From Ectocarpus siliculosus (taxonomy: Eukaryota; Sar; Phaeophyceae; Ectocarpales; Ectocarpaceae), in contig FN649738.1 of the NCBI GenBank assembly GCA_000310025.1, forward strand, positions 1,717,361 to 1,781,360: a DNA stretch of 64,000 nucleotides. The letters are read 5' to 3'. This document shows, one piece after another, positions 6,882 to 64,000 of the stretch. Positions within the stretch are counted from its first letter, which is position 1. Each line of letters opens with the position of its first letter. The translations under genes and the position numbers were made by a program. Under the pieces are notes generated by a model. It saw nothing but the letters and a program-made list of their open reading frames with translations, was not told the origin of the DNA and searched no databases.

Positions 6882-9340
6882 CTACGACGCCCAGTTCATG
6901 AACTGCTCGAGCACACCACCGTTGGGGTCTACGGCCTGCTGCACAGCCATGCCGAGGAATCCGATCATTGCGAGACGGGCGTGCTTGAGCTCCGCCAGGG
7001 CGTAGTCGGGGTTGATGCCGTTGGCCGCGAGGCCGAGGGGGTCGAAGCCGAGGTCCCCGGGGATGACGGTGTCCTCGAAGACTTGATCCTTGTTCTCCGT
7101 CACGGGGGCGATCTTGGCCGCGCCCGCGAGGTAGTCGGTCTTGCCGAGCGATTTGTTCTTGAGCTCCAGCTTGGTCAAGTCGTCCTCGTACAAGTACTTC
7201 TCGGTGAGGTTTCCCGTGAAGGAGGCCACCTCGATGAGCGAGCACAAGATGACGATCTGCGCGAGGCCCAGCCGGGGTACGGAGGACAGCGCGGCGAACG
7301 CGTTCATCTGCGTGAACTCGGGCGCGAACTCGAACCCGGAGAAGCCCACGGGGTGCTGGACAAGCTCGGGGGCGACCATGCCCACGCACGCCAGCATGCA
7401 GATGCGGCCGTGCTTGAGCTCTGCTGTCCGGAGCCAGACGAGGTCCGCGGGTCCGTTCGCCAAGTTGAGCGGGTCAAAGCCAGCGTCGCCCACCATGTCT
7501 CCGTCGCCGATGAGCGGCTTGTCCGCCCACGGGAGGGCCACGGACTTGGTTCCGTCGGACGGAGTCCACCACGATCCTGGTACCTCGGCTGCAACGGACG
7601 AGGGCAAAGCAGGAGAAAATGTGGCGGGGGTAGGATGAGTGGCCTCATGATTTCAAAAGGGCATGCAAGGTGTCCCATGTGTCCTTGTACGAGTTCTGCA
7701 CGTGCAAAGGCCGTTTTCACTGGACTATTGTTCGCCGCGCATCCATTTCGAGGCAGGGCAATGCTTGTGGTCTCGACTCAAAGGTAGCTAACGCACTTCG
7801 CGCACCAACAGTTGCCAGACTTCCCTTCGATGTATACTCTCTCAAGCACATTTTGGAGGGCGTGGGTCGGCGTCCGTTTGACTCGTCGTCGAGGGGCTAT
7901 ACGGCCCAGTGGCCAAGGAGTTGGAAAACTCACTGCAACAACAAACAGGCGCTCGAATGTTTTAACCGACGGAATGCGTGCAACGGCGAGCAATGGGCAT
8001 TCGCCGAAAACACAAGAACAGCAAAAAGGAGTTGTTGCTTCAGTGCACATGTTCTGAAGACTATCATCACGAGGTCTGCTGCGGCTTGTGTGGGCCCAGC
8101 AAGTGTTAATTTACTGAGAAAACTCCTCGCCACCTTGAGGACCATGCGTGACAGATGTACAGGTATGGGGTCTCACCATTTGGTACCTCATGCGGACATG
8201 ACAGACACTACAATACAGGTAGTATGAACAACATTTCCAGTACTCTACACGTAGTATGAACAAATTTCCATTTACTCTTCAAATTTCATGTTTGAGAAAT
8301 CAATACGCGTGCTTCTCTCTCCTCTCTCTCCGTAAGCAGAATTGCTGTTAGATTTGATGTCGTAGTGAATATATCACCAAATTCGGTGCCGAGATTGATA
8401 ATCTTCAGTGGGAGGGTATTCTTGCCGCCGCCCTCCCCCCAGACCCTTCGCTGTTCCCCCCACTACAACAAGTATATTACAGCAGTATCAGGTGTGTAGA
8501 AAACACCCCACATTTGTTGTCGGCGAAAAGAGCGGCTACAATATTGACTGCCATATAATGCACACATCCCAAGAGTAGCATCGACCGATCAAGCTCGCAG
8601 ACAGAACATGTCTCACACGTAGTCACATACGTGAATGCAGCAGGGCTTCCTCTTCTCGCTCGAATTCGTTTCTTCTTTCGCGTAATTTAGCTTGAATTTT
8701 TACATGAGCCACGTGATCCCACCCCGTTCATTATGACGTTGATTCGCCGATCTAGACATGTGTTCATTGCCAAGTAAAGTACAGTTTTCTCGTGACGTTG
8801 TCTTCCGTGTTGGGACTCGCAACTCACAAGCAGCATTCCCAGATAAGAATGCAGAGATGGGAGGTACTGATGGGTTCAACGCAGCGTGTCACTTTGAAAC
8901 ACGACTCTGCTAAGGCCGCCAACTGGTGTCCTCAAGTCACCGTCAACGCCAGTGTCTACAGCCGAACCTTGAGTCAGCATCCCTTCAAGCAGCCCAGGGT
9001 CAACAACAACAAGGACAGGAAATACCTTACATGCAACAACATCTGGACATTCGAAGGCACCCCTAGAAAACGGGAGGAAGCAGAACAGAGGAGATAGCAC
9101 ATAGAAGGGGGCCATGGTGATCATGTCAGCACCAGCACCCAATGTCAACTGTGAAACAGGTGCATGCAAACTGGTAGGCTGGCGGGCTTCGCCCCACGAT
9201 CGATTGTTGTAGAGATGACGAAACTCACCCATCATGGTGGTCTTGGGCGCGGAAGACGCCACGCGCGACGACACGAGCGACGGTGCCACAAAGGCAGACG
9301 CTGAGGATACACATGCGGCGGCCATCACAGCGGACTTCAT
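6882..9340 (-). CDS. Chlorophyll a/c-binding light-harvesting protein (LHC superfamily)
   Basis: Two exons join in phase 1: 9340-9229 (ATG at 9340-9338, donor GTGAGT) and 7588-6882 (acceptor TTGCAG, stop TAG). They give 272 residues. Residues 1-37 are a bipartite plastid presequence: a hydrophobic signal peptide ending at SASA-FVAPS, typical of heterokont plastids. The mature part has three LHC membrane helices. Helix 1 carries AELKHGR (E94, H97, R99) after GFDPLNL. Helix 3 carries AELKHARLAM (E237, H240, R242) after GFDPLGL. These are the chlorophyll-binding ion pairs. The protein captures light in the thylakoid membrane and feeds a photosystem. The long loop between helices and the double GFDPL motif recall the red-lineage Lhcr group, but I cannot fix the subfamily. 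The 1.64 kb intron (7589-9228) holds no other gene I can see. Confidence 0.93.
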
Positions 9341-23029: not shown

Positions 23030-24578
23030 AGTTTCATTGCAAGGAGTCAACATCCCCCGTACACCAACGCACTACTACTGCTGTTGCTGTGTGTGGTGAA
23101 AACGGGTGAGTCTCTCAGTGAAAGGTGTAACCTAGACTATGATATGTAGTTTCGGGCGAGAGAAAGAAATGGAGAGAGAAAGGGCTAAACACATCATCTT
23201 CGATCAGCGCGTAGAAAGATCCTGTGTCAAGTAAAGGGTGGCATCCTTGTGTAGCAGCTACCTTCGAAGTATTGCAGCAGGACTTGCAGAAGTACCAAAA
23301 TAATTCAAGATGATCAGCGCGGAGAAAGAAGATTGGAACAGCGTGCTCTTCTGTGTCAACAACCACAAGGGTGGCATCTGGTTCTTGACCAATGTTCAAT
23401 GGACATCGAGCAAATACTGGGCACTGGGCACACAAAGGCCAAACATCTGTCTGTACATCCCAAGTAGAAATCTTTACGTCGGTTACACAGCAAGTTTCAC
23501 AAGTCCACGAAGAGAAAACAATCCGTCCAACTTCGAATGCGAAACCGTACCATATGGTAAAAATGAGACATGCAGTGTATTATCACCTTGAACCATCGCC
23601 CCTACAAGCTCCACTCTCCCTTTGAACACGCAATGATCTGCACACATTCTGCTTGCCTCTCGCACACAGCACACAAGGCCCGCGTTCTTTCTGTCTCTGC
23701 CCTCTGCCCTCTTGGTCGCTCCCCCTTCTCGTACCTCTCAACTTGAAGTTTGCATCATCTTGATCGGCTGAGACTCTCGTATCCAATCAGGGCATCTGCG
23801 CTTATCACACGTCAGAGGCTGTTGGGGCTGAACAGACCGCTCAGGAACGATCACCATCTGCCCCGATCGTTTTTTGCTGCCTCTCTCTCTTGGGCAGCAT
23901 TTTTCGTACTCATCCACAAACCACCCTCCACGATCAACATCCTACGACCAAAACAACACCCACGCACGGGTAGGGTCATACCTTCAGAGGCCTCCTCGAC
24001 CTGCCGCCACAAGGGCGAGAGAGGTAAGCTTGCGAGGGAAGCTCCTCTGCCTTGCGATGAATGGTTTCAGTGGTGTAGGGAAAAAAAGAGAGTCAGCACA
24101 GCAGATATTTTGCGCGTGTGCCATTGCCGAGAAGGCATGGGCGGCACGTTATTTGCTGTCGCATGTTGTTCGCCACCTCGTCAATTGCGCTTGAGACGGT
24201 GTCTTTGCCGCCCCGCACGGGAGCGCGAGGGTGGGTCTTGTTGGTGTTCTGTTTGATGTGCCCTTGCGTTCCATGGGCGCCGCGTGTTCCTTTACTTTGC
24301 TCTGTTTACACGTGTATGGAGCAAGCTGTTGTCATCGAACGCACACCACCGGTGACTCAAAAAATGGGCTTCGCGGCTGCCCCTCCCCCTCCCCCCCATG
24401 TCCACCGAAGCCGAGCATACAACTTGACCCCGCTTCGCCCTCCCCTCCCCTGGCTACCGCTCTGACTCCTCGCCGTCCTCGGGCGTGTCAGCCTGAACGC
24501 GAAAGACCACCCCAATCCATTCGAGAAACAACAGCAGGAAAGAGGAAATATACAGATCTAAGAGAGGCAGCGGCACAT

Positions 24579-27500
24579 ATGGAAGAGATGATCGCTGGCA
24601 AGCTCCTTGGCCTTGCTGCCGTTGCAGCCAACTCGGCGGCGGCAGACCTGGCCGCGGCAGGCGTCGAGTCAGAGGAGGAGGAGGAGGACAGATGTAGCTG
24701 GTCACGCGATGGTGGCGGCGACACCGCTTCTTACGAGGAGGGTGGCAGCGAGGACGAGGAGGAGGACGACAGGGCCGGGAAGAGGAAGATGACACCAGAT
24801 GACAGAAAAGCTGTTGCAGCCGACAGAAAGGCTCGCAACCGCGAGCGGAATCGCCTCCACGCGCGCAAGACGCGCCAGCGGAAGAAGCAGCACGTGCAGG
24901 AACTGCAGCTCAAGATCTGGGGGCTTCGCCAGGAACGCCAGCGCCTCCTCCAGCTGTCCACCGACCACCGTACCGCAGGGGTGCTCCTCGCCCTCAGCTG
25001 CTCCCCCAAGCAGTGTCAGGAAGGGCCAGCTGGAAGCCAACATCCATCATCCCGCTCGTCCCCGGCGTTGAAACTCCCCAAGGCAGCCGCGACTCCCGCG
25101 GCAAGTAGGAGCAGCAAGGGCAGCGGCAGGGATTGGGGCGAGGAGGTCGCCTCGCACGAGGACGCCCTGCGCAAGATTACACAAGAGTTTGAGAGGATGG
25201 ACGGGAGCCAGCAGGCCGGCGACGACGAGGAGGCTGCAACGCACGCCGGAGGCAAGGGCGGCGGCGGCTCGCGCGGAGCGAAGGGGACGCTGTCCGACAG
25301 GACCGCGCTGCGGAGGGAGCGGAACCGCATGCACGCTAAGCGCACGCGTAACCGCAAGAAGCTGTTCGTAGAGGCCTGCAGCGTCATGATCGACAAGATG
25401 GTGAGTGAACCAGAGCACGTCTTGTTTTGGATTTTTTTGAAAAATAATATGTCCGGCGTCCTTGGGTCCAAACTACACGGTTGTGAAGTCGGTTGGGAAG
25501 ACACGTGTTTCTTTCGAACAACGACGGCTGCAGCAGCTGTCCCGCCACTCGACCTTTCCCGTCCTTGGGAGTGTCCTCCCCATAAAGAGAGCTTTCCAGT
25601 TGATGTACTCTCCACTTCTCTCACGCCGGACTTGTTGTACGATGTGCATATGCATAAAATGGATGCATGCATATGCATAAAATGGACAGGAAAAAATGCC
25701 GACCTTGGGTGTTCTGTGAACCAGCTCTATCTGAATGCACCGAACTGCCCGCCTACAGACTACCTATGCATAGCCCAGAGCAAATCGAAATCGTTCAACG
25801 CCTCCATTGTTTCATTGCCGAACTTGCGTTGTGTTTGGTCGTCCACAATTCTTTCTTCTCTCAACCTTGGTTGTTACCGACTCGGAATTGCCCCTCTTTT
25901 GAGCAGTGCAACATCAATTAGTCAGAGAGGTTGTATGACGTACCAGGACTGAATTTCCTGCTCTATCCATACTCTTTCGCGGGGTGTTTTCTGTCACCGG
26001 TTGTTCGTCACCATTTATTGGAGGTCTGTGCTTCCGCCCTCTCCCCGCATCAAGCTTGCGAGCTAGCACTCGTGTGGATTTCAGTCTTGTCTGGTCTCTG
26101 TGTGCTGCATCTGCGTGAGTTGATGTCCATCAGTGGACACGCGTTTACAGCAGCGGGCAGACCAGTAGTATTCGGAAGACTTGCGTTACTTTTGTGGACC
26201 ACCGTCGTTGTTGCGTTGTGTTGGCGGTGTGGCCTGAACGTTTTCCCTCCTTTTTGTAGGGGTATGCAAGCATATATAAAATGACTCAAGCGTGCAGCAC
26301 ATTGTTGCCAAGCAGAGATTCAAAGTTTCGCGTACAGTATCTAAATTACATTTCCGTGCATTTCACCCGTGGGCATTGGCCTGCCGTAATCATGTCGTTC
26401 TTTATAGCATCTATCGCCGAGACAAAGGGGGAAATATGGGCATGGCCATCCATCCGCTTGATAATGTTCTGCCCCCCACTGCTGTTCCCTACGGAAAATG
26501 CCTTAGGGATTCGCGGTGTTACATCAAGAACAAAAAAAGCCCTATGGGGCAGTGCGTACCCCACTTTTTCCTTCTTGCATAGCCTCGCGATCGCGCACGT
26601 AGCTGCCAAGTTAGTCTCGGCTGACTATTTCTTATCACAATATTTACCCGTATACTATAATACCTCGTGAGGTACGGATTGTGGGTGGTTGTTCAGCTCC
26701 ATTCGTCATGTACCACAAGCACGAAGTTGATGTATTTTTTTCAATCTTCATTTTTTGCTCCCGCTGACCACTTCTCCCTGAGTTGATGACACCTATATAC
26801 CAAGGCTTCATAGTGCTTTTTGGAGTAATTCATACACCATGAGAAAAGAACAGCAGTTCAACAGCGGGGAATTCACTGACGCGGCGTTTGTCAATAATGC
26901 TGCGATGTGTCCTTGTGGGAGATGCGGTTTTGCGAGCGGATGATTGTGTGGAGGGTTTCATGTCACAGCAAGTGTTGGAGAACTCTGGTCGTTCAACAGT
27001 TTTCCTCTGTAGTTGCTCGTTGTTTCGGATACGGCCAGCGTCGAAAGTGGACCTTTCCGGTTTGAAGGATTTTCAATAGGTGCTTACGCATGACTGGGTG
27101 CGTAGTCATGCATGAACACGATGTGTTTGTTCCTTGAAAATATTTCGAGGTGTTTGCAGTGTTCATTGCGCGTGTTGTTTTTCTTTCTGAGTGAACGATC
27201 CTTGGACATTCCTGAACCAGGTGGAGATTTACGAACTCCAAGTTGCTACACGTTTAATTGAGTCTCCAACCCGTTGCCCTGCTCTGATGTTTTTGCCTCC
27301 CGCCCGCTCTTCTCTATACGTGCCCCCCCGAACCCTGCAGAAAGTGGAAAATGCCCAACTCGAGCACGAAATCCGAGCGTCCGGGATCCAGCTGCCGGAG
27401 GATAACTGGGCAGAGGAGGTGCGAGAGACGATCCCCGAAGAGCCCCTCCCGGAGTACCTGGCGGCGCTCTGGGACTTCGCGGAGGGCAAAAGTCACAGCA

Positions 27501-28261
27501 CCTCCAAGGCACCAGGTTCAGGGGTTGCCAGCAGCAGCAGCAGCAGCAGCGCGACCGCTACGGCCACGCCGGTCTCGCCCCCGGCCACGCCCAGAATGCC
27601 TTCTGCGGGTGCATTCCGACAGAGTCGCCAGACGTCGTCTTCTTCCTCGGCGTCCTCGTCTTCTTGCTCCTCGTTTTTCTCGACCCATAGCCGACGGCGA
27701 CTAAGCAGCGCGGCCACCACCAAGGTCCCGCCGCGGCCCCCGTCGCCGCCCTTGGCGGGGTCGATGGCAATGTCGGTCTTGTCGGAGCAGGCATCGAAGC
27801 AGCCGGCGGTGGCGCCCGCAACGGCCGCAGGTGCTGACCCTGTGGCGGCGGCATCGAACCCCGGGCAGGCGCTCGAGGACGCCTCGGCGCTGTGCGCGTT
27901 CATGGAGGCCGCGCAGACGAGGTCCGTGAAGCGCGTCCGCGTGGCGCCGCAACAGCAACAGCAGCGACGAAAGGATGGGAACACGAGCACCGAGAGCGCG
28001 AAGCAGATGCAGGCGCAGCCGCGGGGTTGGTCGGACCAAGGCAGCACGACCTCGGAGAGCCGTGGCGGGTCGGACTTGTCAGAGGAGGACGCGGCGAACG
28101 AGAGGAAGTCGGCGGACGGAAGCGGCGCTTCGACGTTGAGCAGCGAGGAAGAGGCGGCATCGAGTCGGGACAGCGGCGCCGTCCTACCTCCCGAGTTTTG
28201 GACGTCGCGCCAGGTTCTTGAGCGATATGTGTTGCCCCGGCAGCAGCTTCTACAGGGCTGA
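24579..28261 (+). CDS. bZIP transcription factor with two basic regions
   Basis: Exon 1 (24579-25400, donor GTGAGT) and exon 2 (27341-28261, acceptor CCTGCAG) join in phase 0 to give 580 residues. I chose ATG 24579; the frame is open further upstream, but I saw no better ATG. Acidic stretches (31-37, 57-64) precede basic region 1 (86-103, RNRERNRLHARKTRQRKK), which has a short leucine zipper of about three heptads. Basic region 2 (245-261, RRERNRMHAKRTRNRKK) is followed by a coiled coil that crosses the intron (MIDKM then KVENAQLEHEI). Both carry the N/E-R-N-R-x-H-A-x-x-T-R-x-R-K-K signature. The C-terminal half is rich in Ser, Ala and Gln and probably disordered. It should be a nuclear DNA-binding protein; target genes cannot be told from sequence. 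The 1.94 kb intron contains a small duplication only. Confidence 0.85.
25646..25686. repeat. 18 bp direct duplication in the bZIP intron
   Basis: GCATATGCATAAAATGGA occurs at 25646-25663 and 25669-25686. A related stretch (GCATATATAAAATGA) stands near the middle of the intron at about 26268-26283. Confidence 0.85.
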
Positions 28262-30089
28262 CTGCGAGACCACGGGAGCGTTTTTTCTCTTACGCCGTGG
28301 CGGACAACTTTTGCCCCAGAGGGGTTTTGACGTGACAGGCTTACGGAGGGGGTCGTGTGGAAAGAAAAAGGTTGCACGCGTGTTTTTGGGGGAGAGGATA
28401 CCGGTGTACTCAGCTTTCGTGACAGACTTGGATTTGTCTGAAAACGTCGTGAGCGGTGTCGAGTTCTCGGGAGATAGGGTTTGTGTGTTGCGGCGGTAGA
28501 TTGGTTTCCCGAGAGAAGGCGACTTGATTGCTCTGCTTTACTGTTCTTGCGTGAGGTGACATGTGAGTGTTGGCGAAGTGGGCTCTTCTTTCTCTCCCCG
28601 CGTGTCTTCTTGGAATGCGTTAGTAAATGATCTGTGTGTTAGGCTAAAAGACGACTTGTTCCTGTTTAGAGAGGGATTTACCCTCGTCCCACCAAAGCGG
28701 TCCTTTGCTTTCGTCTGTCCGCAGGTGTGGTGTATAATTGGATGCCTAGAACTAAACGTTGATGGAGCGAGCCAAGCGATTGATTTTTTTTGTGTTGGTT
28801 ACAGGCGTATCTCGCAGAGACGAAGAGTTGTTTCAGTGCAAGATTCTCGGGGGGACACACTTTCACCTGTACAAATAAGCCGTGTGGATAGTGGCGTCTG
28901 TTTTTTCCTGTGTAAAGAGGGCGTCGGGTTTTACTTTTCCCGTGTATTCTCTAGTTCTTCTCGACTTGGTTCTGATTCCTCCTGTTTTGCGTGTTATAGA
29001 GGTTGTTGTTGCGATGTTGGAGACGATGATGGAGTGCCTTGGCTCGATTCGCTGTGACTTGTACTCCAGGTAGTTGGTTATAGGTTTTCCCCCGCGCGTG
29101 GGCGGGAGAAGTTCGTAAATATATTTAGCGGTATTCATACAAGTCTTATTGCTTGGTAGACACTTGTGCGGACAGTTGCTGCCTTTGTCCGCAGTTCAAA
29201 ACATATAGAGGTGTACTTGCGTGGGGGCGTACGAGGGTCGGAGCAGCCTATTTTTCTTTCCTTGTACAACGTGCACCGAATCTAAATTAAGATCACAGCT
29301 CAATTAATTTTTTGTAACACGAGCGAGGAAGGCTCTTTGCTTCCCATCGCGAATTGGTTTACTCTTACCTCGCGCTGCTCTCCTGCTGCTGTGTCAGCCT
29401 GCGAAAGTTGCAAGCTTCTCACGTCTACTTTCCATCTATGGGCACCCGAAAGGGAACAAGGGGATACACAGATCATCAAGCTATCCTATTAGTTTGGCGT
29501 TCTACGTTACCCCTTGCGCCTCTTCTTTGTGCCCTTTTCTTCACTTGCGTCCGGGCTGGTTCCACTTGCACTACCGCCTCTTCCACTACTGTCGTTATTT
29601 CCCTCATCCTCGTCCTTGTCCTCATCCTCGTTGTCGTCCAGTATCTGAACCGTGAATAAGCCGGGACGAACAGAGAGGGTAGGTTTAGCACCCCAACACC
29701 AAGTAGAAATCCCGACAAAGCGGGTAAAACGACATATTTGCGATCTGCCTGTTGCAGACGTCCCTCAGGCCCTTCCCCGGGATTTGATCTTGCAACATGA
29801 GATGAGCACAACAACGCCACGTTCAGCTACCGAAAGGCCGATACAGCAGCAGTAACTTGAAGCGAGTGAAACGAGATGCAGCGGCGGGTTTAGTCTTGGG
29901 CCGTGCCACAGATCAGCATGAACGAACGAGAGTCGATGAAAACGAGAAATAACGGAGGGGACAGTGATGTCATATGATACGCATCGACCAGGTCGTCTTG
30001 TTGTTTGTGTTTTGCAGGAGCGAGTACATCTTCTGAACGCAAATTGAGGCATGTAGAATGGGACAGCTGTAACAGGACTACTCCTGCTG
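28262..30089. other. Intergenic DNA between convergent bZIP and SET genes
   Basis: Both flanking genes end here, so their 3' UTRs fill part of it. Open frames (up to 164 codons at 28563-29057) are T/G-rich and without motifs. I see no RNA gene. Confidence 0.5.
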
Positions 30090-34314: not shown

Positions 34315-37300
34315 ATGCCACCCAAGCGATCAATTGGCGCTGCCGGAAGCAGAGGCATGTCATCTCGCACAGGGTCTTCTCGGGGAAGAAGCTCACGACA
34401 AGAGCCAAGGACCGCGAAACGTCCTAGACAACAGGTAAGTGATCAGCGGTACAGCCGGCTGGTTGCATGGCCTGTAGAGCACAGAGTTCGGTGCCAGGCA
34501 TCCCCGTACCTGCGTTGCACTCTGAACGTTCTACCGATTGCCTTCATGCTGGAGTTCTTACCCGTGGACACGTCCTGTGTTTGGTGAACATGGGATGCCC
34601 CCCCGCACTTGAGAGACGGCTTCAGCGATGCCCTGCACATCTTCTCTTCATGATGCGTAGTCTTTGTGTACCAATGTACTGCTGCAAGGGCAATCCAGCA
34701 ACCGTTCAATCTCATTGAATGCAGTTTTTTATTTCACGTGCCAGCATCCGCAAGTGACGCTTGCATTCCTTCCTTGCTACGTATGCTAAATTCACTCGCC
34801 GCCAGGCACAATCCGCGCTCGCCTGGGGTGACGATGATCCAGACGCCGGAGATTCAGACTCCGAGGACGGGGATGGGGGCGGCGGTGCTGGAGCGGCGTT
34901 GAGCAAGGAGCGTAAAGAGGTTGAGGAGGCCAAGGAACAAGCGGAGGCGGAGGCTAGAGAGACGGCGGAGGAGAAACGGCTGCGTTTGGCCAGGGATGTA
35001 CTCATGAAGCTGGACGCAGAGCAGCGAGAGAACGTGGGTTAATGCGGGTGTTGGTGATTGCGTTGTCGGTCCATCCGCGGTGCCGAACCAAACGTTGATA
35101 CCATCGAACGTTGTCACATCTCACAGCCCTCGTCACGAACCCTGCTATTTGGATAAAAATAGAGGCAACACATGTTTTGACAGAGAGCACCAGCCTGTAC
35201 TGAATTGTAGCGTTGTTGGCATTGAAGGTATCTACCAGTAGAGCATATGTATGGCAACAACTATTGCGAGTCTCGTAGCACCCGTCCCGCCAGAGAGTGG
35301 CGGGTCGGGCGGGAAGGAATCGCCTGCGTCTGTGTGCTGCTCGGCCCGCCGGAGCGGGCACGCGGGAAGCAAAAGAGACTGTACCCTCAGTTGAGCGCTA
35401 GGAACTATACATGAGATGGTTACCGACACCAAGGATTACGCCGACTCTTGACCGGCCAAGTCCTCCACTGGAGATGGCGATCCGGCTTTGTATAAATTCT
35501 GATCCTTGCTGACCCTTCACATGCTTTTTGTTGTTGCCAGCGAGAAGAGGGGACTGACGAGGAGGACGACGATGCCCCTGGGGACTACATTGGGGATAGA
35601 CTGGCACACGCTCGTCTCGAAGCAACCGGGCAGCTCTACAGAGAGGTGTGTGTGCCTTGTAGCATTGACCCACTGGGAACTAAGGAGGTGCTGTCATGGG
35701 ATCGGTGTGGGGGTGTGCCTCTCCTCAATGCAGCTGCGGCTGCTCTGTGAAGAGTATCGTCGTGTATTCAAACGCTCCAACCTCTGTTCCCATCGATAGT
35801 TGACATGTGCTCCATCTACTTTATGTGTGTTCGGATCCAGCTCCGTGAGCACAGCAGCAGCGATGTAGGCTCTCGCTGCTTTAACACAGGTTGCTCATGT
35901 CGTCTGACTACTTCGTGCCCATTATCTCGCACTGAGTACTTGCCTTTTTCCTCGACCCATTGCAGGTGGCGAAAGGTCTGCAAGGTCAGCAGATATCACC
36001 AACGGCTGTACGGCATATGCGCGGGCACAAGCTGAGCCCGACATGCGTGGTGCTGTCACCGGACGACACCACGGCTTTCTCGGGCAGCAAGGACAACTCG
36101 ATAATACGGTGGGACGTTGAAACCGGCAAACGTGTCACCATGCTACCCCACTGGCGTAAGCTTCCGGGGGGCAAGGTGCCTTCAGTCAAGGCGCACAGCA
36201 AAGAGGTCAGTCTTGAAGCGGAAACTGGTCCACCCAGCCATTTCCACTCGGTTGACGTTGAGCCGAGGGTGTATCTCTGGCGGTCTGTGCTCTATGTTTT
36301 GCAGTTCTTCAAGCACCATCTGCCCGCTTTCGAGTGGCAGGATAGCTCACACGGTACTTCCCACGCCCACCATGTTGCCACAAGGTTCTTACCCTTGCGG
36401 TCAGCGGGGATGGTCGGTACTTGGCTTCCGGAGGCCGAGATCGCCTCATCAACGTGTGGGATTGTCGTACCGACACCGTGGTGGAGACGTTCCGTGGCCA
36501 CCAGGACACGGTATCCTCTCTCGCGTTCCGGGCCAACAGCCTGGCGCTCTTTTCGGGGTCTCACGATCGATGCGTCAAGGTTTGTGCGCTTGGCAGCCTG
36601 CCCTTTTTTTTCTACGAAGCCAATTAATTATCACATGTTGACAACCCTCGACTTCGTAATCAAGTGTCATGTGTACGGTACCGTTTGCATTGTAGCAGTT
36701 TAACACAGAAGCGCTCACCGTGCTTTCGACAGAGGACGTCTCGCTGCCGCTGCCCTTGTCTCATGTGCGGTTTCCCCCGCGGATGTACCTCAAACGAGAG
36801 TCAGTCTATTCTCATTTGGGTAAACATCTAAGACCTCGTCACCCGAACTCTCTTCCCTTGTGCAGCATTGGGATCTCAACGAGATGGGGTACGTGGAGAC
36901 TATGTTTGGTCATCAGTCAGAGATCAATGCCATTGATTCGTGGCGTAAAGAGCGGCTTGTCACTGGAGGGCGCGATCGCACGGTGAGCGTGGTGGGCGCA
37001 GCGCCTTCCCTTCCTCATTTGCCGAGTGTGTCCGGCACGGTGGTCGAAGGTTGCGCTGTAGTTGACAACGAGAACGGCCTGACACGCTGCTGTGCTGAGG
37101 GAGGGAGGCGCTCATATCGTGTAGTTACGATTTACTGCAGACAACTCCGTTGATTTTTTCCTTTTTTGTCTTGCATGACAGGTCCGACTATGGAAAGTGC
37201 TGGAGGACAGCCACCTCGTGTTTCGCCCTGTTGGGGGAGGTAGCATAGACTGCGTCAGGTGAGATATAGCTTCCCGAACGTCGACGCATCACCTCTATCC

Positions 37301-60100: not shown

Positions 60101-62845
60101 GTGACGTATGGGCCATGTCAAAAATATTGTGTCATTGCGGTTCTCCCCGCCGTCATGCTTCTTCGGTGCTAAAGGTTTAATGGAGGATTTCTCACCTTGG
60201 TGTTACGCCAGCCTGAAAAAAGAGCGTATTTCCCGGTGACATAGAGGCGCCCGTGTAGCGGCAGCCCCCCGCTATATAAGCCGCATGAGAAACTTTCGAT
60301 CACCTGGGGGGCGGCCGAGGCAGAAGAGAAACCCGGGCTCCATACCGTTAGATCTGCTCATTTATGCTTGATACAACTCCCGGTGTGGTGATGCGTCACG
60401 TTGTGCGTGGGACCACCCCTCGAAACCCCCTTGCCTTGCGATCTTGCTATTAATAAGCTTACCCAGACTCCGCACGGTCTCCAAGTGGTACAAGAGAGCT
60501 TCCAAGCTGAACCGGGGTCTACGAGATACGCTGACAATGCCCCCTGCGAGACTCCATCAGACTATGTTCATAGATACTCACCTTTTCTTGCAGATCTTCC
60601 TTGGGAAGGTCGAACGAGTCCAACACGTTCAACTCGTCTGATGCTTGAGCCGTGGAGGCCGATATACCGGCAGTTGTTGACGACTCACGGTAAAACGCGG
60701 CCACACCACCGCCGGAGTCGATCTGTTCTTCGTCGCTACTTGACATTCCATCCTCCTGCGAATATCAAGCATGGGTGATGACCAGAGACGTCCATTCAGC
60801 GAAGGCCTCGAGGAGATGCACCGCGGGTGCACACCGCAGATAAGCGCGGAAGGACGCTGGTTCGCTCGAAGCTATACGCCACCGATACATGGACTTTAGC
60901 TTACGGAAGCATGAAGCACCATGACACTTCGGACGGCAGGTGCCTCGGAAGCGCCGTACTGTCCGTAGACGCACACCAAAATACGACAACTGACCCTGAC
61001 TCGGAAGACAACCGATGGGGATACATACGACTCTTCCATAGGCCACACGTTGTTCGTGGAAAGGCGGGGCCTCTTAAGGGCACCACCGTGCGACTCTTTT
61101 CCTGGGTTTTTCCTTAACTAAACTCCACGAAAATGCATCTTTCGGCCCTTAGTTTAGCTGGCCAAAAAAATCATCACGTTAGCCCCCAGACACATTTTGC
61201 ACCGAGGTCGTCGACTTCTAGTATGCATATTGTACAACAAACTACATGCGTGCAAAGACTGAAAGAGCGACGCCACAAAACATACGCCACATAAATAGCT
61301 AAATGGGGACACCTGGCCCTGTTGTGCACTGTTTTCCCAGGATAGTAAAACCAACAAGCATTAATCAGACGCGCAACGGTGAGCCGCGACTTTTCATACT
61401 CTCACACGCCACCCGCCAGTACCTTCTTCCCAAGGTCCTGCTTTACCCTTTTCCCCGGTCATGAGAGTTCCAATCCTCGATTGGTGTCAAACCAGAAAAA
61501 TGATTAACATCAATGCATATACCTGTTAAAAAACAGGTAAGAGTTTCTTGGGTTGCCTTACCTCCTCGCCTCCCGACGAAAAATCGTCTTGTTCACGGAG
61601 CCGGTTCTTGAGATGGCGCAGAGAGGGCCGACGTTCCGACCTCGGCGACTCTTCTTTCACGGCCATCTACGATACATTAGGGACGCAAGCGTAGCGTGTT
61701 CGCGGAAATCCATGAAATAACTCTCTAGAATTGCAATTCCACCAACCAAAGGCGAGCCAACGTCCTATACTGAGAAATGGTGATGGTAAATATGGCAATG
61801 TCCAGAGACATCGAACCTGCGACGTGATAACAAAGAGGATAATTAGTTTTGTCGCTTCACCTGTTCTTTCCGGGTGTCTCTGGAGTGTACAAGAGAAGAG
61901 AAATCAATGGGCGAACCCACTCTTCCTGGTTCTTGTCTACACCTAGGGGCTGACTCTTCCGTGGGAGCCACTTTCTGTTCCACTTTCGCAGAACCCACAT
62001 CTTCCGCTTCCTCGGTAGGTGAGACCTCCACTTCCACGCGAGACCGCTCGCTCCTCGCGACTTGGTCGAGTCCACCCGTGAGCACCACGCCATCTCGCTC
62101 CGACTGAATTCCCTGGTCTGCGAGACCCGCTGCTTTTGCCACGTCGGCGCTGAGAGTACCGAGCTTCGCTTCCTTCACTGGGGCACCCGGCGGTGGCTCC
62201 GTCTCACTTTCCGCCTTGACTGTCGGGTGAAGGTCTGCTATAGTCGCAATGGCAGCCGTCACTCCGGGTGCTTTTTGCCCGTGACCATGGATTGTTTCCG
62301 GCTCCATTACGCCTCCCGCAGCGCCAGATTTGGCGCTGGGAGGTGCTTCCGTGGGGTCGACCGATGCTTCTACCGGTGACGGGGGAGCCGGAGTGCCTCC
62401 GCTTCCGCCTTCTCCTGATACTATCGCCGAGTTACTGTCGTTCGGCACGTCGGTGCCTTCTCCCTCTGTAGGGTCTAGCTTGCCACCACCCAATCCCGGA
62501 GCACCTTCGGCCTTCGCCTCTGGCACATCACTAGCGCTACCGCTCTGTTCGGCATCCTCCACGGGCGGGGATGAAAGCACACGGTCACCGGTGCCGACCC
62601 GGGGACTGCCAAGACCGCTCGTGCTCACTGACACCGTAATCGGTGCATCTCCGACGACCTTGGTTTCCTGTCCCTGTTTGGGCGAATTCGCGTTCTTAGA
62701 GTGTGCCCGCAAAGATATCGCGCTGCTGTGCCTTGAGTACGACTTGGTTCCGTGCCTAGAGCCGTGCCTAGAGCCATGCCGGGAGCCGTGCCGCGAGCCA
62801 TGGCGAGAGCCCCGGCGAAGATTCCCATGTAGAGACCCGCCGTGC
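57192..62845 (-). CDS. GRAM-VASt domain membrane protein (Aster/LAM-type sterol transporter)
   Basis: Exons on the minus strand: about 62845-61861, 61666-61562, 60755-60582, 60303-60196, 60020-59935, 59717-59411, 59193-58986, 58801-58731, 58331-58141 and 57639-57192. The N-terminal exon is disordered, Pro/Ser/Glu-rich, with GSRH repeats. The GRAM domain spans three exons: ESFSCGLYSGGLPLHGRLYV, VEKTSTLRFVPNALTLV, GGEKVTLGSFLFRDD. The VASt domain follows: KFETMVEAVLPCTTAQ, WADFLRAQGETGLTITPWGK, YRVERRED, APLADHFTILGKVVLS, VCIGFDVAFHRSTMLRGAI. A membrane segment (VPTVLTFLCLFLVM) and a coiled coil lie at the C-terminus. This order is that of GRAMD1/Aster and yeast Lam proteins, which sit in the ER at contact sites and carry sterols. 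All joins from 61861 on agree in phase. The start codon was not found, and the gene may extend upstream. Confidence 0.88.
57790..57995 (+). repeat. Dispersed repeat family, copy D (in a GRAM-VASt gene intron)
   Basis: CACTGGGCACTGGATATACT, then GAGTCCATACACTGAGG and GTGATGCCAGC, match copies A and B in order. The array (TGTC)n at 57928-57949 lies inside it. It is antisense to the host gene and sits between exons 58331-58141 and 57639-57192. Confidence 0.55.
62752..62811 (-). repeat. Coding 12 bp tandem repeat (GSRH)x5
   Basis: Five head-to-tail 12-base units read Gly-Ser-Arg-His on the minus strand. They lie in the N-terminal exon of the GRAM-VASt gene. The two units nearest the low coordinate are identical and the others differ at a few sites. 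The frame continues into TKSYSRHSS and the disordered region. Confidence 0.75.
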
Positions 62846-64000
62846 CTTTACGACCAGACCACGACCAGACCAAAACGTACGGAGTACCCAAAAAGCAAAG
62901 AGTACGGATTCAGCTTTTGGCGCGTTGTGTACGGTCCACAATTCGGGACGTGATGCACATGCATCGCATTCGATTCGACTCGTGGTCGCAGTTTGGTGAC
63001 ATCCCAACAGCACGAGCACGAAGCGGCCTTGTTTGACACTGGAACACACCTACCTGGAAGCATTGTCGTCGCACACCACCACCTCAGAGTCACTGAAGCA
63101 ACTCTCCCTATTCTCGGGCGCCCTGATCTTTCGGCGATGTCGACGGTGATCTCTGCTGGGAAAACGTACAAGAATGACACATCGTGCGCGGGGTGCTCAG
63201 CGTGCAAAACGCTTGCGAGTAATCTTGGCTCTGCAGACCGTGCAAGACTTGAGCGCAACGTTTGGGGTCTACACCTTGCCCGGAGAACTTTCGTTGATCA
63301 ACACACCTCAGCACTGGACGTTGTCGCGACAGCGACGTGGGACCCTCCTCTCCATCCGTGAGAGATGCCGGAAATGCATGGGCGGCCGCATTTGAACCAC
63401 CAACGCCACTCGCTGCTCCCTCGTTCTCGCGACCAGTGTCTTCCTGCCTGGCAATAATCTGCCGCCTCTGTTGCTTGGCATGCGCCTGTGTGCGGCACGT
63501 TTTCCCCAACCAGATAAGATCGAAATGTTTGGTTTTCCTCGTGGCACTGGGGTACCCATACGTTGCAAATAATGAACACTACTTAGGGACCTCCAAAGTT
63601 GTCTTGAAAACTCGTTTTTCGAAACAAAAGAGAGTCCGACACGATCCCTTCCGTGCCCGATCGGTTGCTCCTTCAAGGGTATACGTTAAAAAATAGTGCA
63701 TCGGTGCATTGGACCAAGAGTCACATCGACTAGGCTAACATCGCCTTGGCCAGACTGACGTAAGCTGACGCCATCTCCAGCAAGCTGCAACCGGCTTCGA
63801 GATGAACATGCCAACCTGATCAGCTCGAGCTGATACGGCCGATGTTGTGATTGGGAGAAAAAACATCGCATTGAGTATGCATACATGAGGGGAAAACGCA
63901 TAGACACAACCAAGGCTTGTAGATGTTCCTGATGCCTTCAGCCGCACAGGAACATGGTTTCGTCTGAATCTCTGATGAATCTCTTAGCTTCTCACCTGCG
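62846..64000. other. Upstream of the GRAM-VASt gene; possible missing N-terminal exons
   Basis: Minus-strand frames here (for example FLYVFPAEITVDIAERSGR at about 63200-63130) could be further exons of the GRAM-VASt gene. I could not join them by splice sites and phase. No other gene is supported. Confidence 0.35.

Follow-up and report, generated by a model that had tools for sequence, protein, structure and literature searches.

Whether a single chain can carry two complete bZIP units, and how such a chain would then pair and bind DNA, is the question raised by this locus. Obligatory dimerisation is the defining trait of bZIP factors, and the choice of heterodimer partner is their main combinatorial device. 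Within the window (the whole stretch of DNA analysed, 64 kb in length), joining positions 24579-25400 to 27341-28261 on the forward strand gives in translation a protein of exactly 580 amino acids followed by a TGA stop codon. Exon 1 (24579-25400, +, 822 nt) reads in frame without interruption and encodes residues 1-274, comprising an acidic N-terminus, a first bZIP unit, a linker, and the basic region together with the start of the zipper of a second unit. Exon 2 (27341-28261, +, stop codon included) is open for 306 codons and encodes the end of the second zipper and then a tail rich in serine, alanine, proline and glutamine. The start codon is putative, as the exon 1 frame is open from 24195 through the donor to a stop at 25950-25952 and holds another ATG at 24273, upstream of the modelled start. 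G+C at third codon positions amounts to 0.781 in exon 1 and 0.785 in exon 2, and the G+C content of the intron is 0.481. In mononucleotide shuffles, a weak control in which codon structure is ignored, the exon frames stayed open in 5 of 5,000 (exon 1) and 2 of 5,000 cases (exon 2). Exon 2 by itself matched no Pfam family over cut-off, neither exon had a match in NCBIfam (a prokaryote library), and tRNA and Rfam scans of the window returned no match. A 381-codon open frame (27493-28638, -) also runs opposite most of exon 2 and the adjoining 3' flank, probably as a by-product of GC-rich codons on the other strand.

The doubling itself is seen in the basic regions, both of which are encoded by exon 1. 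Basic region 1 (24837-24887, +; residues 87-103, starting at residue 87) reads NRERNRLHARKTRQRKK, and basic region 2 (25311-25361, +; residues 245-261, starting at residue 245) reads RRERNRMHAKRTRNRKK. The claim of the first-pass annotation that one chain bears two full ERNRxHAxxTRxRKK signatures holds, the 15 residues being complete at 89-103 and again at 247-261. Written as a degenerate DNA pattern, the signature matches exactly twice in the window (24843-24887 and 25317-25361, both +) and not at all in 100 dinucleotide shuffles of it, and a looser regular expression for bZIP basic regions, run over all six frames, picks out these two places alone. When the 580-residue protein was permuted 20,000 times, 10 of the permuted sequences contained this loose motif one or more times. 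A chance repeat of a basic stretch is ruled out by these shuffles and permutations. Both units also contain the N-x7-R motif of the bZIP superfamily (NRLHARKTR and NRMHAKRTR), with histidine at position 4 in each, counting the asparagine as 1. The doubling is thus confirmed, and the view that two bZIP units lie on one predicted chain is supported by the motif, by Pfam and by the predicted helices.

Because both basic regions sit in one open exon, the doubling is independent of the join of 25400 to 27341; the second zipper alone depends on it. A wrong splice fusing two genes is ruled out on the same ground as the source of the doubling. The case in which the two basic regions belong to different mRNAs, which had been named earlier as one that would overturn the finding, is unlikely, since both occur in a single 822-nt open exon; splicing within that exon or an alternative promoter might still bring it about.

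Heptads were counted from the conserved arginine of each unit (Arg99 in unit 1, Arg257 in unit 2), and an in-register leucine zipper of several heptads with its first d position at Arg+10, by which the bZIP superfamily is recognised, was found. Zipper 1 (24888-24968, +) has V, I, R and S at the a positions and L, L, L and H at the d positions, lies within a predicted helix (residues 73-139), and carries Gly115 in its second heptad. The heptad count bears out its earlier description as only about three heptads long, and zipper 2 likewise extends over about three, with V, I, N and I at a and C, M, L and S at d. The first d residue of zipper 2 (residue 267, window 25377-25379) is a cysteine; a 2-2 homodimer would set two Cys267 face to face, where a redox-sensitive disulphide could form.

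Zipper 2 requires the splice. Its 5' part (25362-25400, +) reads LFVEACSVMIDKM and its 3' part (27341-27385, +) reads KVENAQLEHEIRASG, and the heptads stay in register across the join. The predicted intron between them (25401-27340, +, GTGAGT...CAG) has the donor GTGAGT; its acceptor, which follows a run rich in pyrimidines, ends in CCCTGCAG, and the junction falls in phase 0. Joining raises the score of unit 2 against the Pfam family bZIP_2 from 18.5 to 28.1 bits (+9.6). From the donor at 25401, 139 joins run through their first 29 residues without a stop, and only the proposed one has 6 of 7 core positions (13 score 5, 33 score 4, 30 score 3 and 62 carry a proline); with every donor tried taken together, 8 of 935 stop-free joins score 6, this heptad score being a consistency check rather than an independent statistic, since its rule set was drawn up with the proposed join known. 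The 25400/27341 join is therefore likely on the predicted protein sequence, with in silico support from both the Pfam score and the heptad register. What had been described as a second zipper split by a 1.94-kb intron stands as far as the 1940-bp, phase 0 intron interrupts zipper 2, and the support for its removal is computational.

The gene model could nevertheless be materially wrong, either because exon 2 does not supply the rest of zipper 2 or because isoforms separate the parts, through retention up to the stop at 25952 or through a transcript that starts from an ATG at 27287. In favour of such an error, the exon 1 frame runs on past the donor to 25950-25952, the exon 2 frame is open from 27191, and a second join, from a donor at 25405 to an acceptor at 27345, equals the proposed one in scoring 6. 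That donor reads GTGAAC, however, which by general consensus is poorer than GTGAGT, and it reaches the same downstream heptads (the ENAQLEHEI zipper). Reading through without the join places a proline at the third a position and leaves bZIP_2 at 18.5 bits, and even with a failed join both basic regions would stay in one exon. We regard a material error of this kind as improbable. With regard to possible isoforms, the exon 1 frame past the donor (25401-25952) comprises 183 sense codons, and a transcript retaining the intron would encode both basic regions but a broken second zipper. The ATG at 27287 is in frame and upstream of the exon 2 acceptor, and a transcript beginning there, inside the intron, could yield the tail without any basic region.

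Searched as a whole, the 580-residue chain exceeds the curated Pfam cut-offs for the bZIP superfamily, with bZIP_1 at 29.5 bits (E 8.2e-7, cut-off 27.6) and bZIP_2 at 28 bits (E 2.4e-6, cut-off 22.3), and each family matches two stretches when E values up to 1 are admitted. Exon 1 alone gave bZIP_2 at 27.3 bits, likewise in two stretches at this limit, and bZIP_1 at 21.7 bits, under the cut-off; the unspliced 585-codon frame as a whole passes for bZIP_2 (24.1 bits; bZIP_1 22.1 bits), but none of its individual stretches reaches E 0.01. Unit 1 is the weaker bZIP match despite its complete signature, because when excised it scores under both cut-offs (bZIP_1 19.6, bZIP_2 19.0 bits), whereas unit 2, excised with the join, passes for bZIP_2 at 28.1 bits and fails for bZIP_1 at 23.2. 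The two units have 20 of 60 alignment columns in common, and BLASTP of one against the other gave 17 identities in 33 positions (52%), with an E value of 1e-8 that refers to that single comparison. Their 17-codon cores encode the same residue at 12 positions, and because 7 of these 12 codons are identical, the copies do not stem from a duplication of very recent date; the small number of codons allows little more to be said.

The unequal scores bear on a reading in which unit 2 is the sole working DNA-binding domain and unit 1 is degenerating or accessory, serving for instance in nuclear localisation, in nonspecific DNA affinity or in autoinhibition by pairing with unit 2. It would fit the failure of unit 1 at both Pfam cut-offs, which unit 2 clears for bZIP_2 (28.1 against 22.3 bits), as well as the charged third a position and the glycine of zipper 1. 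Basic region 1, however, keeps its full signature, unit 1 has leucine at d1-d3 and is in this respect better than unit 2, and its helix is confidently predicted; we consider it rather unlikely that unit 2 works alone. The prediction in question is an AlphaFold2 model of exon 1 only, made from a single sequence and of low overall confidence (mean pLDDT 65.9, pTM 0.39), which places helices at residues 2-25, 73-139, 186-221 and 238-273. The helix of unit 1 reaches block pLDDT values of 90-94 at residues 71-120 and 83 at 121-130, and that of unit 2, which is clipped by the exon end, has values of 60-80 from residue 241 on. Foldseek with this exon 1 model listed one match (E 3.3). The linker between the units (24969-25295, +) has about 110 residues, 49% of them glycine, serine, proline or alanine. 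Its predicted helix at 186-221 (window 25134-25241) has block pLDDT up to 85 and matched no Pfam family in the scans that were run.

Three pairings of the units are possible. By the charge rules for g-e' contacts the pairs 1-1, 1-2 and 2-2 tie, each with 2 repulsive, 4 neutral and 0 attractive contacts. They differ at the third a position, which brings together Arg-Arg in 1-1, Arg-Asn in 1-2 and Asn-Asn in 2-2. Because arginine would face arginine there, the core rule disfavours the 1-1 pair and would allow both 2-2 and 1-2; taken together, the pairing rules do not decide the mechanism. A Gaussian-chain estimate, which ignores the predicted linker helix 186-221, put the effective concentration between the units across the linker at ~0.1-1.4 mM over the distances tried. 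Because of the core rule at the third a position and this high effective concentration, the reading we prefer, tentatively and with somewhat less than even confidence, is an intramolecular pairing of unit 1 with unit 2, spanning the linker of about 110 residues. The linker, being flexible, would let unit 1 zip with unit 2 of the same chain, and with arginine (unit 1) against asparagine (unit 2) at the third a position this pair would escape the Arg-Arg clash of 1-1. The resulting single-chain pseudo-heterodimer would grip one DNA element of two half-sites with both basic regions of one molecule, a FOS/JUN-like grip for which no partner protein would be required.

Several findings speak against the 1-2 pair. 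Electrostatics give it no preference, and by the core rule the 2-2 homodimer with its Asn-Asn contact is at least as acceptable. Both zippers are short, with Gly115 in zipper 1 and cysteine and methionine at d positions of zipper 2; unit 1 on its own is under the Pfam cut-offs and unit 2 on its own passes for bZIP_2 and not for bZIP_1; and the structural model (pLDDT 65.9, pTM 0.39) is of low confidence. The units might instead act as two independent bZIP arms, each dimerising with another molecule, of its own kind or a different bZIP, so that multivalent complexes bridge two sites or bind clustered ones. A long, flexible linker would suit such arms, the asparagine at a3 makes the core of unit 2 tolerable for a 2-2 dimer, and unit 1 resembles a heterodimer arm, having arginine at a3 and two K-R like-charge contacts in the 1-1 pair. 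Some oomycete bZIPs are speculated by their authors, in the accessible part of that study, to be obligate heterodimers (PMC11267843). On the other hand, the partner unit on the same chain would compete, at its high effective concentration, with partners from solution, and we judge independent arms to be unlikely, if still worth serious consideration. As to the intramolecular 1-2 pair, we are doubtful whether it makes the protein a natural single-chain bZIP dimer, that is, a monomeric protein whose two units zip intramolecularly and read one composite DNA site, doing away with the partner-choice step that underlies combinatorial control by bZIP factors. Between the two modes of action proposed in the first-pass annotation, one chain binding two half-sites alone or bringing two sites together, the sequence rules lean slightly to the former.

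FOS was the best listed solved-structure match of the 580-residue query, aligning without gaps over unit 2 and in the same register, with an E value (0.086) that is not significant alone. FOS has lysine where unit 2 has asparagine at a3, and JUN has asparagine at that position. The FOS/JUN (AP-1) pair thus sets a charged a3 residue in one zipper against asparagine in the other, as units 1 and 2 do here, but the present protein differs in having both zippers on one chain, in their length of about three heptads and in the lack of attractive g-e' pairs.

The gene appears to encode a bZIP transcription factor with stramenopile-like basic regions and predicted DNA binding. Histidine at position 4 of the N-x7-R motif is common to both units and to six of the nine aureochromes (stramenopile bZIP-LOV photoreceptors) named for Saccharina japonica in the accessible text of one paper, SjAUREO1a/3/4/5 and 1d/1e (PMC9416419), but it is not diagnostic, as the other three of the nine do not have it and the comparison covers aureochromes only. 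At position 3 those six have Glu or Asp, whereas the units described here have Leu or Met. Aureochromes furthermore carry a LOV domain C-terminal to the bZIP; this chain has two bZIP units, and no LOV or PAS family occurs among the Pfam matches of the spliced chain and the exons (E up to 1) or of two longer frames (E up to 0.01). An aureochrome identity is ruled out, since the LOV domain was not found. A search of papers for aureochrome-like peptide strings gave 0 hits.

Elsewhere in the window, a frame for a chlorophyll-binding antenna protein lies at 6882-7652 (-), covering positions 6-161 of the 162 of the Pfam profile Chloroa_b-bind in one frame (E 3.1e-48). Among the best 60 of its 658 solved-structure matches, LHCI chains are on top, and fucoxanthin chlorophyll a/c and chlorophyll a-b binding proteins are both present. 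This putative antenna gene points to a photosynthetic eukaryote and fits a brown alga without proving it. An assumed stramenopile setting agrees with it and, within the aureochromes of that partly accessible paper, with the histidine at position 4 of both units. An exon-like frame at 35936-36700 (+) has a WD40 repeat (E 7.3e-6) whose 26.8 bits are slightly below the 27 of Pfam, and an open frame at 61843-62847 (-) contains, close to its start, an SRHG-type peptide repeated in tandem and has no Pfam family at E 0.01.

Lettered names given to diatom bZIP proteins are possible names of two-domain chains; the open-access literature, in the portions available, contained nothing under such names that bears on two-domain chains. 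The only two-bZIP chains found in the accessible portions of that literature, a scope outside which the stramenopile survey of Rayko et al. 2010 falls, are VRI candidates of Asterias rubens and Magelona mirabilis (PMC9939569). They have two bZIP domains on a chain, as here, but are animal clock-gene candidates from transcriptome assemblies, mentioned, in the part of the paper available, in a passing remark without a mechanism. The wording 'two bZIP' has 0 occurrences in the main text of a eukaryote-wide bZIP survey that includes Ectocarpus (PMC4736632) and 0 in that of a study of P. infestans transcription factors (PMC11267843). In the accessible text of further papers similar wording refers to an ordinary bZIP dimer rather than a two-domain chain (PMC9658026), to two kinds of architecture (PMC9437623), or to other senses (PMC4398384, PMC5816651, PMC1769443, PMC6946401, PMC4599898, PMC13293076).

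The searches for relatives covered viruses and prokaryotes, so an empty result in them is no sign of a unique protein. With the exon 1 protein, 38 stretches of the viral collection matched the pattern and 0 were confirmed; the DNA signature had 0 matches in the viral and 0 in the prokaryotic collection; and a two-row alignment matched 43 viral and 117 prokaryotic stretches, with 0 confirmed in either. Chains with two bZIP domains are already known in kind, and the double basic region seen here is, judged by its sequence, a plausible new variant. A chain that contains both halves would either make the pair a genetically fixed one or serve as a built-in two-site tether. And if the organism is a brown alga, the gene would represent another elaboration of an ancient transcription factor family in a lineage with independently evolved multicellularity.
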